Under the pieces are notes generated by a model. That model ran no database searches, had not been told where the DNA came from, and saw only the letters and a list, made by a program, of their open reading frames with translations. A stretch of 64,000 nt of DNA from an uncultured Clostridia bacterium (lineage in GTDB: Bacteria > Bacillota > Clostridia > Christensenellales > UBA3700): contig CAMXSN010000002.1 in the NCBI GenBank assembly GCA_947246685.1, positions 85,485-149,484 of the forward strand, read 5' to 3'. Numbering within the stretch: the first letter of the stretch is position 1; each line of letters opens with the position of its first letter. The translations under genes were made by a program, and so were the position numbers. Of this stretch, positions 45,497 to 49,370 are shown one piece after another.

Positions 45497-46042
45497 ATGC
45501 AGAATAATAAGAAGAAAATATTGCAATCCGTTATGATAATAGTCGCGGCGTTGTTTATAGTTTTGGGGATTTTATCCGTCGTCCAGGCGACGGGTTCGGA
45601 CGTCGGATTGACTTATATCAGCAAAATAAGCAATATGATTTTGAGATACGTTGTGGTTATCGTCACTAATGCGATAGGTATCATGCTTATGTCTTATGCG
45701 GCGGGAACGTTTGAGGGGAAATTAAAAAATATATTTTCGATCGCAGTTTGCGCTTACAGCACGCTGATGACCATTCCGCTATTCATGGCGTTCATACTTA
45801 TGTTTCCCGTCGGCGCGGGAGCGACGCTTCCCGCATTTCTCGACGATATGGTGCGAGATATAGTCGTTGCCTTTCAACAATTAGTCGGGGGCGACGGATG
45901 GCAATACGTTATCTATACTTTGGGGACGCTAATGGGCGCGGTATTTCTTGCGTTCCCTATATTTTCTACGTATTGCACGGTCAAAGATATTGACGTTATC
46001 GCGATTGTCAAAGTGAAACTGACATCCAAAAAGTCCGATTAA
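45497..46042 (+). CDS. Four-helix membrane protein, unrecognised
   Basis: 181 aa with four hydrophobic segments (~10-30, ~48-70, ~80-105, ~138-160) and a basic C-terminus. No domain recognised. GGGAGG precedes the ATG. It sits just upstream of the 8-TM L15-like protein, but each gene has its own promoter. Confidence 0.7.
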   Translation: MQNNKKKILQSVMIIVAALFIVLGILSVVQATGSDVGLTYISKISNMILRYVVVIVTNAIGIMLMSYAAGTFEGKLKNIFSIAVCAYSTLMTIPLFMAFILMFPVGAGATLPAFLDDMVRDIVVAFQQLVGGDGWQYVIYTLGTLMGAVFLAFPIFSTYCTVKDIDVIAIVKVKLTSKKSD

Positions 46043-46248: not shown

Positions 46249-48441
46249 ATGACAAGTGCTGAAAAGAAAGCTCAGAAAGCAGAATTGGCAGCTCAGAAAA
46301 AAGCCGCAAGAGCCAACAAACAAAGCGGCGGAGAGAAAAAGCAGAACAAAGTAGGATTTTATATTGTTTCGCTTTTGAAATATTTCAATATTATCACGGT
46401 TTTGCCGATTACCTGTCTTTTGTACGTGGTATTTTTTGCGACGGATATAGTCGACGGCATATCTTTTCTCGACAGCAACAAAATACCGGTAATAGTCATG
46501 ATAAGTATCATGTGCGCGGCGCTGATGGCATGGACGGGACTTACTTTTAAGAAGAGAAGAGTATGTTCGCTCGACGCGTTTTTGTTGATAGGTTTGCTGT
46601 TGTGTATCGGAATGATATTGCAATGCATTATTCTCAAACATTTTTCGCCTTTTGATAATATCGCGATAATTACGATAATTATGACGGTGTTTGTGCTTGC
46701 GCTTATGACGCTGAGACTTTGTTTGTTCAAGCCGAGCGAGCAAAACAAAAACGACGACGCAAGATACGATGCTAAATCCAAGATTGCAATGTATCTCAAA
46801 GTTATCTTCTCCAAATATGCGTTCTTTATATCGATGCTCTGCATTATGGGCATTTTGCTTATACTTATAATCACGCGTTCGACGATGTTTGAAAAATTTG
46901 AATTCACAGCTACTCAGCTAGAAAAGGTAGTAACGTTTGCGTTTGCGGCGGTTGCGCTTGTGCTTATGGTGGTCGGTTTGTTCATCAGATTGGTAAGAGG
47001 AAGAGCCAATATCGTCGATTGCATGCCTTATATGTTTATTTTGGTTGCCATAGGCGGTTTGATATATTTCATAGGCGTCAGCAATATCTACATGATTTTA
47101 TACATATCCATAGGAAGCGGTATCGTGGGTGTGATATGGTTGCTTTTGTGCCAATATACGTTGCTTATGTCTGTATACAGAAAACGCGAAGGCGTTGAAG
47201 AAATTCCGCAAGAGCCAGCGCCGGCTGAAGAAGTTGCGGCTCCCGTTGAGGAAGAAACGGTATCGGACGTAGCAGAGGAACAACCGATTGCTGAGGAACA
47301 TACGGCGGAAGAGCCCCAGCCTGTTACTGCTGAGGAAACTGTCGAGGAGACTCCCGTCGAAGAACAGCCCGTTCAACCGGTTGAAGAAGACAAAGCGGAA
47401 GAGCCTGTCCAACAGCAAGTAGAAGAGCCCGTTCAGGAAGAGGTAGTAGAGCAACAGCCCGTAGAGGAAGTTCAGCCTGCTCCCGCAGAAGAAGAAAAGG
47501 TGGAAGAAACTCCCGTTGAAGAGCAGCCTGCGGAAGAGCCCAAACCCAAGAAAAAGCCTGCGCCAAAAGTTGTCGAGGAAGAAGACGAAGACGACGATGA
47601 GGATGAAGACGACGGCGAGGGAGAAGAACTCGGAGCGATTAAGAGTGTCAAGCCAAGATGGGATTATGCTACCAAACTAAAATTGACGAGCGACGATATC
47701 AAAGCATTCTATGCGGATATTAAGAACGAACTGTTGTCTTACGGAATCAAAAACAGAGTTAGTAAGACAAAAGAAAACTTTAATAAGGGCCGCGATACGG
47801 TTGCGAGAATAGCGCTTAACGGCAAGACAATGAAAGTGTATCTTGCGCTTGATCCCAAATCTTTGGATGAGAAATACTATCATCACAAAGATATGAGCGA
47901 CAAGAAAGCCGTAGAAGATATCCCGACAATGATGCCCGTGCGTTCTAAGACGGCGGTCAACAAAGTCAAAGAATTGATAGCTATACTTGCGCAAAAGATA
48001 GAGATGCCCAAGAAACCTAAATATAAGAGCAAGGATTTTGCAGAGGAACTGTCCGCAGAAGAATTGACGCTTGCGCAAAGAAAGGGATACGGTTATCTTA
48101 TCAGACCTAACGTCAAACTCGAAGACGTCGAACAGATGCCGGATGATTTTGCCGAGCAGCTTGCCGACGTGACCACAGAAGAATCTAAGACAATGAGATT
48201 TATCAAGACGACCGTAACGCTTGACGAACTCGCAGAACATTTTGACGACGGCGACACGGTTACGATAGACTCAGTCAGAGAGGCAGGTATAGGCGCGCAG
48301 AACGCCAACTATCTCATCGTTGAGGACGGCCCCGTCCTCGGTAAAAAATTGAAAGTATTCGTCGATGAGATCACTCCTAATGCAATCAAGATGATTGCGT
48401 TGGCAGGCGGCGAAGTGTCGCGCATTTGGAGAAAAATGTAA
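46249..48441 (+). CDS. 8-TM protein with a ribosomal-L15-like C-terminus
   Basis: 730 aa from the ATG at 46249, chosen for its upstream AGGGGG. A basic N-terminus precedes eight membrane helices (~35-300), all consistent with a cytoplasmic tail. The tail has a long Glu/Pro/Val-rich linker (~305-455), a domain (~470-590; DIKAFYADIKNELLSYG) and a final ~85 residues resembling uL15: VTLDELAEHFDDGDTVTI, then KKLKVFVDEITPNAIKMI and AGGEV. The middle domain looks related to the tail of the 1760-aa protein. Function unknown; ribosome contact at the membrane is only a conjecture. Confidence 0.72.
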   Translation: MTSAEKKAQKAELAAQKKAARANKQSGGEKKQNKVGFYIVSLLKYFNIITVLPITCLLYVVFFATDIVDGISFLDSNKIPVIVMISIMCAALMAWTGLTFKKRRVCSLDAFLLIGLLLCIGMILQCIILKHFSPFDNIAIITIIMTVFVLALMTLRLCLFKPSEQNKNDDARYDAKSKIAMYLKVIFSKYAFFISMLCIMGILLILIITRSTMFEKFEFTATQLEKVVTFAFAAVALVLMVVGLFIRLVRGRANIVDCMPYMFILVAIGGLIYFIGVSNIYMILYISIGSGIVGVIWLLLCQYTLLMSVYRKREGVEEIPQEPAPAEEVAAPVEEETVSDVAEEQPIAEEHTAEEPQPVTAEETVEETPVEEQPVQPVEEDKAEEPVQQQVEEPVQEEVVEQQPVEEVQPAPAEEEKVEETPVEEQPAEEPKPKKKPAPKVVEEEDEDDDEDEDDGEGEELGAIKSVKPRWDYATKLKLTSDDIKAFYADIKNELLSYGIKNRVSKTKENFNKGRDTVARIALNGKTMKVYLALDPKSLDEKYYHHKDMSDKKAVEDIPTMMPVRSKTAVNKVKELIAILAQKIEMPKKPKYKSKDFAEELSAEELTLAQRKGYGYLIRPNVKLEDVEQMPDDFAEQLADVTTEESKTMRFIKTTVTLDELAEHFDDGDTVTIDSVREAGIGAQNANYLIVEDGPVLGKKLKVFVDEITPNAIKMIALAGGEVSRIWRKM

Positions 48442-48497: not shown

Positions 48498-49370
48498 TCA
48501 AAATTTAATCGGACTGTTGTCGAAATCGGGAATGTATTCTTCGCTTGCGCTGTCGCTATCTTGAATAAACGCGTTGTCAAAGCCGAGTTTGCGAGCGTGA
48601 TTTACGGCGATTTTATATTCCAACGGATAAATCTTTCTTGACAGCTCTGGGAAGGCTTTCGCGTTGCCGTAGGGCACGAATTGGCTCATCAGCGAGATAT
48701 AAGTATCTTTTGCCAGGTTGTTTGCCAGCCAGTTAAGCAATCCTACGGTGTTGTCAATATTGTTGGGCAATACCAGATGCCGCACCAGAAGTCCTTTTTT
48801 CATCAATCCGCCTTCTATTACGTCAGTCGGTACGATTTCTCGCATTTTGAGAATCGCATCAGTACATACTTTGAAATAATCGGGGCAGTTGCTGTATTTT
48901 TTTGCCGCCAAATCGTCGGAATATTTGAAATCGGGAAGGAACACGTCGACAAATCCGCGCAGTCTTTCCAACGTCTGCGTGCTTTCGTATCCTCCGCAAT
49001 TATACACTACGGGCAGCGACGGGCGATAGATTTCCGCGGCTTGCAATATTTCGCGTACAAAATGCGTGGGCGTGACTAAATTTATGTTATGCGCTCCGCA
49101 ATCTTCGAGTCTCTTGAAAATGTCGGCAAGGGCTGCAGGCGATATCGCTTTGCCTTTTCCTCTGGATATTTCATAGTTTTGACAGTATGCGCATCTGAGA
49201 TTGCAACCGCTAAAAAAGACCGTGCCGCTGCCTTTTTCGCCTGAGATAATAGGCTCTTCCCATCGATGCAGAGAAACGCGCGCAACTTTCAATGATGTTT
49301 GATCGCAATAGCCTTTTGAGACGATTCTGTCAACGTTGCAATTTCGCGGGCAAATCTTACATTTTTCCAT
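48498..49370 (-). CDS. Radical SAM protein, PflX (COG1313) type
   Basis: 290 aa. An N-terminal Cys cluster (CKICPRNC...GYC) precedes the radical SAM motif GCNLRCAYCQN. It resembles pyruvate-formate-lyase activating enzymes but belongs to the PflX group of unknown substrate. Leaderless start: the -10 (TACACT) ends 6 nt before the ATG and no ribosome site exists. Confidence 0.88.
   Translation of the reverse strand: MEKCKICPRNCNVDRIVSKGYCDQTSLKVARVSLHRWEEPIISGEKGSGTVFFSGCNLRCAYCQNYEISRGKGKAISPAALADIFKRLEDCGAHNINLVTPTHFVREILQAAEIYRPSLPVVYNCGGYESTQTLERLRGFVDVFLPDFKYSDDLAAKKYSNCPDYFKVCTDAILKMREIVPTDVIEGGLMKKGLLVRHLVLPNNIDNTVGLLNWLANNLAKDTYISLMSQFVPYGNAKAFPELSRKIYPLEYKIAVNHARKLGFDNAFIQDSDSASEEYIPDFDNSPIKF

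Follow-up and report, generated by a model that had tools for sequence, protein, structure and literature searches.

A C-terminal tail joining a basic DUF5655-like domain to a uL15-derived domain recurs in proteins of one Christensenella-like bacterial order

Why should a membrane protein of an uncultured Clostridia bacterium end in a domain resembling ribosomal protein uL15, and what could such a domain be doing there? The gene in question lies in the window, the whole stretch of 64,000 nucleotides that was analysed, and occupies positions 46249..48441 of the forward strand, starting at an ATG (46249) preceded by a good ribosome-binding site (aggggg) and ending at 48441; it encodes a protein of 730 residues, whose parts are all given here on the same strand. 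A membrane domain of eight helices (46327..47202), inferred from hydropathy and in agreement with the helices of the AlphaFold (AF2) model of this region, is followed by a low-complexity linker rich in E, P and V (47203..47646), recognized from its composition, which is about 150–166 residues long and contains 36% D+E. Both the eight helices and an acidic linker of some 150 residues had been anticipated in a sequence-only reading of this DNA, which overlooked a second conserved domain between the linker and the L15 domain (residues about 467–588; 47647..48012), with about 120 residues, a net charge of +10, remote homology to DUF5655 and a possibly YjbR-like fold. A structured connector of net charge −4 (48013..48204) joins this basic domain to the uL15 C-terminal globular domain, of L15/L18e fold, at the extreme C-terminus (48205..48438). 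The basic domain and then the uL15-derived domain form a tail module behind the acidic spacer, corresponding to the last 265 residues of the protein. Matches to GltJ, polymerase gamma/tau and TagH were rejected as alignments to the low-complexity linker, and PHROG yielded no match.

The relationship to uL15, which had been proposed from the residue pattern of the last 85 or so positions, is evidenced at the levels of profile and fold. PF00828 (Ribosomal_L27A, L15/L18e) matches residues 655–723 with 30 bits and E 7e-7, above its gathering cut-off of 21.5 bits, and is the only Pfam family above cut-off in the protein; a six-frame search of the genome recovered the same site at E 5e-8, the second of its two matches being the genuine rplO (E 6e-18), and across searches the PF00828 scores obtained here range from 30 to 34 bits. 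We have aligned 26 homologous tails comprising basic and L15 domains (alignment A1), which were used both for modelling and as a profile. The AF2 model of residues 467–730 has a mean pLDDT of 93.2 and a pTM of 0.79, and in a Foldseek comparison with the PDB its first 22 matches all come from ribosome entries, with alignments of about 80–98 columns, the best being 8uua_N (E 1.2e-4, probability 1.00, 28% identity over 83 columns); where phmmer identifies the same chains, they are uL15. In the reciprocal direction, the A1 profile found matches in 357 of 399 genomes of the phylum, and among the matches listed nearly all those outside the own genome align only at positions about 183–260, within open reading frames of about 150 residues that correspond to genuine rplO. 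The resemblance might be attributed to chance or convergence, considering that the single-sequence score is modest and that phmmer against PDB sequences places uL15 chains on top only weakly (E 0.02). This explanation is ruled out, at a negligible residual likelihood, by the fact that all 26 members of A1 match PF00828, the most ribosome-like reaching E 7e-13 (L067), and that the reciprocal profile and fold searches agree.

The window gene is clearly distinct from the gene for the ribosomal protein itself. An intact and complete rplO is found at 83.7–84.2 kb of the same contig (G000:C2), 1.3 kb upstream of the window start, in an ordinary spc operon in which secY, adk and map follow, as ordered from the ORF starts. 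The window gene is located about 48 kb away, beside proS and plsY and outside that operon. A separate rplO, which the sequence-only reading had expected elsewhere, is thus present, scoring 171.7 bits with the rplO equivalog TIGR01071 (cut-off 77.95), against 15.7 bits for the window protein. A core is common to rplO and the non-ribosomal domains (F16, G19, V22, L48, K50, L52, V54, A63 and GG, which reads as F, G, V, L-x-K-x-L-x-V, A, I, GG). The latter, however, have lost or vary K41, the LGxG positions (L43/G44/G46), N8 and the terminal E75, which are 98–100% conserved in rplO, and have gained an A-x-K-M-I signature, with K in 100% and M in 91% of members where rplO has mostly E and K. The Gly/Arg motif of the uL15 N-terminal extension was found in none of 79 non-ribosomal matches, but the pattern is strict, being present in just 19 of 60 rplO frames, and the rplO of this genome carries a variant of it. 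As judged from these residues, the loss of ribosomal invariants, the absent N-terminal motif and the gained signature, the window domain is therefore not a second uL15; the same traits suggest that it has acquired a new partner rather than kept a role as ribosomal subunit.

Could the protein nevertheless act on the ribosome? The uL15-like and basic domains might attach to ribosomes, or to precursors of the 50S subunit, at the membrane and so localise translation, as would fit the descent from uL15, the basic neighbour domain and the near-ribosomal KVLxxG loop and positive charge that some members retain. We consider such tethering unlikely, as the rRNA-penetrating motif is absent, the nearly invariant LGxG and terminal E are lost, and in the mature 50S the uL15 site is taken up by rplO itself. 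Charge is not informative in this respect: the window L15 domain is acidic (net charge −4 to −5), but in this sample genuine rplO, too, has near-neutral globular domains, so that this property does not discriminate RNA binding. Of the proposal that a membrane-tethered ribosomal-protein fold contacts rRNA, the membrane-tethered uL15 fold has thus stood, whereas the rRNA contact is disfavoured by the absent extension, the loss of most uL15 invariants and the new family-specific ones. A tree built from 51 non-ribosomal L15 domains and 60 ribosomal ones splits the two sets at one branch (SH-aLRT 99), which makes a single co-option of the uL15 domain likely, and not proven, given the small size of the domain (80 columns) and the presence of long branches.

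The basic domain offers a distinct clue. PF18899 (DUF5655) itself had no match in 30 relatives, but a profile-profile comparison (hhalign) built on five clean sequences gave 95% probability and E 3e-8, the latter for a single comparison, over 103 columns. PADLOC models of PDC-S18 also match the domain, at E 5e-6 in the window protein and 2.5e-14 in a tandem-domain paralogue (L100), the alignment being limited to the C-terminal third of PDC-S18 (positions about 190–300), which is the DUF5655 part behind a NucS-like nuclease domain. After the ribosome chains, the Foldseek match is YjbR (2fki; probability 0.99 but E 0.01, TM 0.55, about 10% identity), which from the aligned length we take to belong to the basic domain. 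Each of the 26 aligned members has a net charge between +7 and +17 in this domain, with conserved K/R positions (476, 485, 503, 520 and 526 among them). The domain can thus be described as DUF5655-like with a possible affinity for nucleic acids and, being DUF5655-like and strongly basic in all aligned members, it is a better candidate for nucleic-acid binding than the L15 domain. The match to a candidate defence model raises the possibility of a membrane-anchored defence protein whose tail senses or binds invading nucleic acid; we regard this as very improbable, given that only the DUF5655 part of PDC-S18 is matched, the NucS-like nuclease part being absent, and that the gene stands among housekeeping genes (proS, plsY, ychF, argS) and not in a defence island. 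The basic domain is commoner than the L15 domain, and in the window genome it is also found in tandem in the 763-residue L100 (L100:2906-5197, G000:C7:11.0-12.6 kb), in two more transmembrane proteins (L101, G000:C3:193.5 kb; L102, G000:C3:241.2 kb) and alone as a protein of 127 residues (G000:C7:23.6 kb).

The two domains are not an isolated combination. Among 59 relatives, about thirty PF00828 matches sit in long open reading frames with a consistent architecture, that is, an N-terminal part, a transmembrane segment, an acidic low-complexity linker, the basic domain (which L067, L068 and L070 lack) and, at the very end, the L15 domain, no more than about 10 residues from the C-terminus in all significant matches except L164 (110 residues). 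The module terminates proteins of 285 to 5335 residues with differing N-terminal parts, such as the eight-helix protein, small single-helix proteins and giants of 1301–5335 residues, whose ectodomains are in some cases of the Big_2, MBG_2 or List_Bact_rpt type. Of 247 genomes of the order, 110 encode the pair or the basic domain of it at E<=1e-12, and these represent 36 of 115 genera; at E<=1e-18 the matches are confined to genomes of the order, no such match being found in class genomes outside it (sample of 245 class genomes). Relatives retrieved by name are uncultured Christensenella, Christensenellaceae and Clostridia MAGs, and the two-domain tail is a recurrent C-terminal module in one Christensenella-like, mostly uncultured order, being found only there among the genomes sampled. 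One genome (G566) encodes ten proteins with a complete tail (L148–L153), several in frames of more than 1,700 residues; their L15 domains are nearly identical in sequence, which suggests a recent expansion.

On which side of the membrane the module resides can be estimated from the flanking charges. K and R residues average 3.1 after the last transmembrane helix against 0.74 before it, and in 23 of 27 nonredundant proteins the count after the helix is the higher one; the tail is therefore placed, on this compositional basis, most likely in the cytoplasm. No transmembrane helix is present in 10 of 37 nonredundant proteins, in some of which the frame is cut by the locus end, and these few members indicate that the module is not solely a membrane tail. 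Stretches resembling List_Bact_rpt or B-repeats were observed between the transmembrane helix and the tail in three loci (L078:2900-7372, L080:1474-5379 and L102:788-2368). B-repeats are normally extracellular and in this position sit uneasily with a cytoplasmic tail: in L078 and L080, either the repeats lie in the cytoplasm or the topology has been wrongly deduced.

The two halves of the membrane domain match each other (96%, E 4e-9) as two diverged four-helix repeats, in each of which a conserved basic segment precedes an aspartate (KKRRVCSLDA and VRGRANIVDC), and in alignment A2 of this domain D85, R223 and D233 are invariant. The AF2 model (pLDDT 82.7) found no match in a fold search of the PDB, and the candidates MFS transporter (PF07690; well short of cut-off at E 0.005) and MalF P2 (PF14785; weak) were rejected. 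At the same place in four genomes of the same genus (G001, G003, G004 and G008) the membrane domain is encoded as a protein of about 440 residues lacking the tail, which is therefore not essential to the membrane part. In three of these (G001, G004 and G008) a stand-alone basic-domain frame of 134–147 residues (L081, L103 and L017, with L018 for the membrane part) is found just upstream, as if the protein had been split or fused in evolution. The same-genus neighbours are either those of the radical-SAM/plsY/ychF side (L003–L005, L090) or an upstream transmembrane protein of 181 residues (L091, L092). In the window the latter lies directly upstream (45497-46042) and has no NCBIfam match; on the other side, a small radical-SAM protein encoded on the reverse strand (48498-49370), conserved in the genus beside the gene, resembles activating enzymes and is below all NCBIfam cut-offs.

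The simplest meaning of the same tail on unrelated membrane proteins would be a shared docking target, and a nucleic acid or nucleoprotein is the likelier one because the tail includes a basic DUF5655-like domain. We thus propose, with a probability of roughly one half, that the window protein is a membrane-anchored adaptor with a mobile C-terminal module, which would dock all its carriers to one common cytoplasmic target, probably nucleic acid or nucleoprotein, with the basic domain making the first contact. The uL15 domain would have been co-opted once, losing its ribosomal role, and may now provide specificity through its own conserved surface, the A-x-K-M-I helix and the GG loop; here the tail would tie the eight-helix (2×4) membrane domain to that target. 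Several observations speak against this docking: the tail-less forms within the genus, the members devoid of transmembrane helices, the B-repeats preceding the tail, the acidity of the window L15 domain and the neighbourhoods in same-genus genomes, in which no co-conserved operon partner was found. Both recycled folds might instead bind only a cytoplasmic protein (cytoskeletal, signalling or secretion), serving for docking or scaffolding, as would agree with the gain of a new conserved helix patch, the loss of ribosomal invariants and a tail common to adhesin-like giants, as expected of sorting or anchoring. This seems to us a good deal less probable, though not as unlikely as ribosome tethering, in view of the strong positive charge of the basic domain in every aligned member and its kinship with a nuclease-associated domain. 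Returning to the adaptor, a wider and tentative version, which we hold to be rather doubtful, is that a derivative of uL15 entered, in a single event, a common tail on the cytoplasmic side, and that this tail tethers ribosomes, the nucleoid or a specific RNA both to the membrane and to the giant surface proteins of the whole order.

A literature search (extraribosomal L15, membrane-linked L15, DUF5655, PDC-S18) retrieved no relevant paper from the literature covered, and there appears to be no description of a ribosomal-protein domain being reused as a cytoplasmic tail that membrane and surface proteins have in common. Automatic annotation is liable to name such genes ribosomal L15, which may mislead marker-gene work; and should RNA, DNA or ribosomes prove to be what the tail binds, bacteria that are for the most part uncultured would have a cytoplasmic connection from their surface proteins to the machinery of gene expression.

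In respect to known systems, the non-ribosomal domains share with uL15 (rplO; PF00828, TIGR01071) the C-terminal globular L15/L18e domain and its fold, but are devoid of the N-terminal rRNA-penetrating extension and are usually joined to a membrane protein. In comparison with DUF5655 as the C-terminal domain of NucS-like nucleases and PDC-S18, the window protein has no nuclease domain, and the basic domain is here joined to a uL15-like domain or arranged in tandem. With the MmcQ/YjbR 'double wing' proteins (2fki) the relation would be one of fold resemblance at low identity, and DNA binding by YjbR itself is inferred from structure (PMC7641849).
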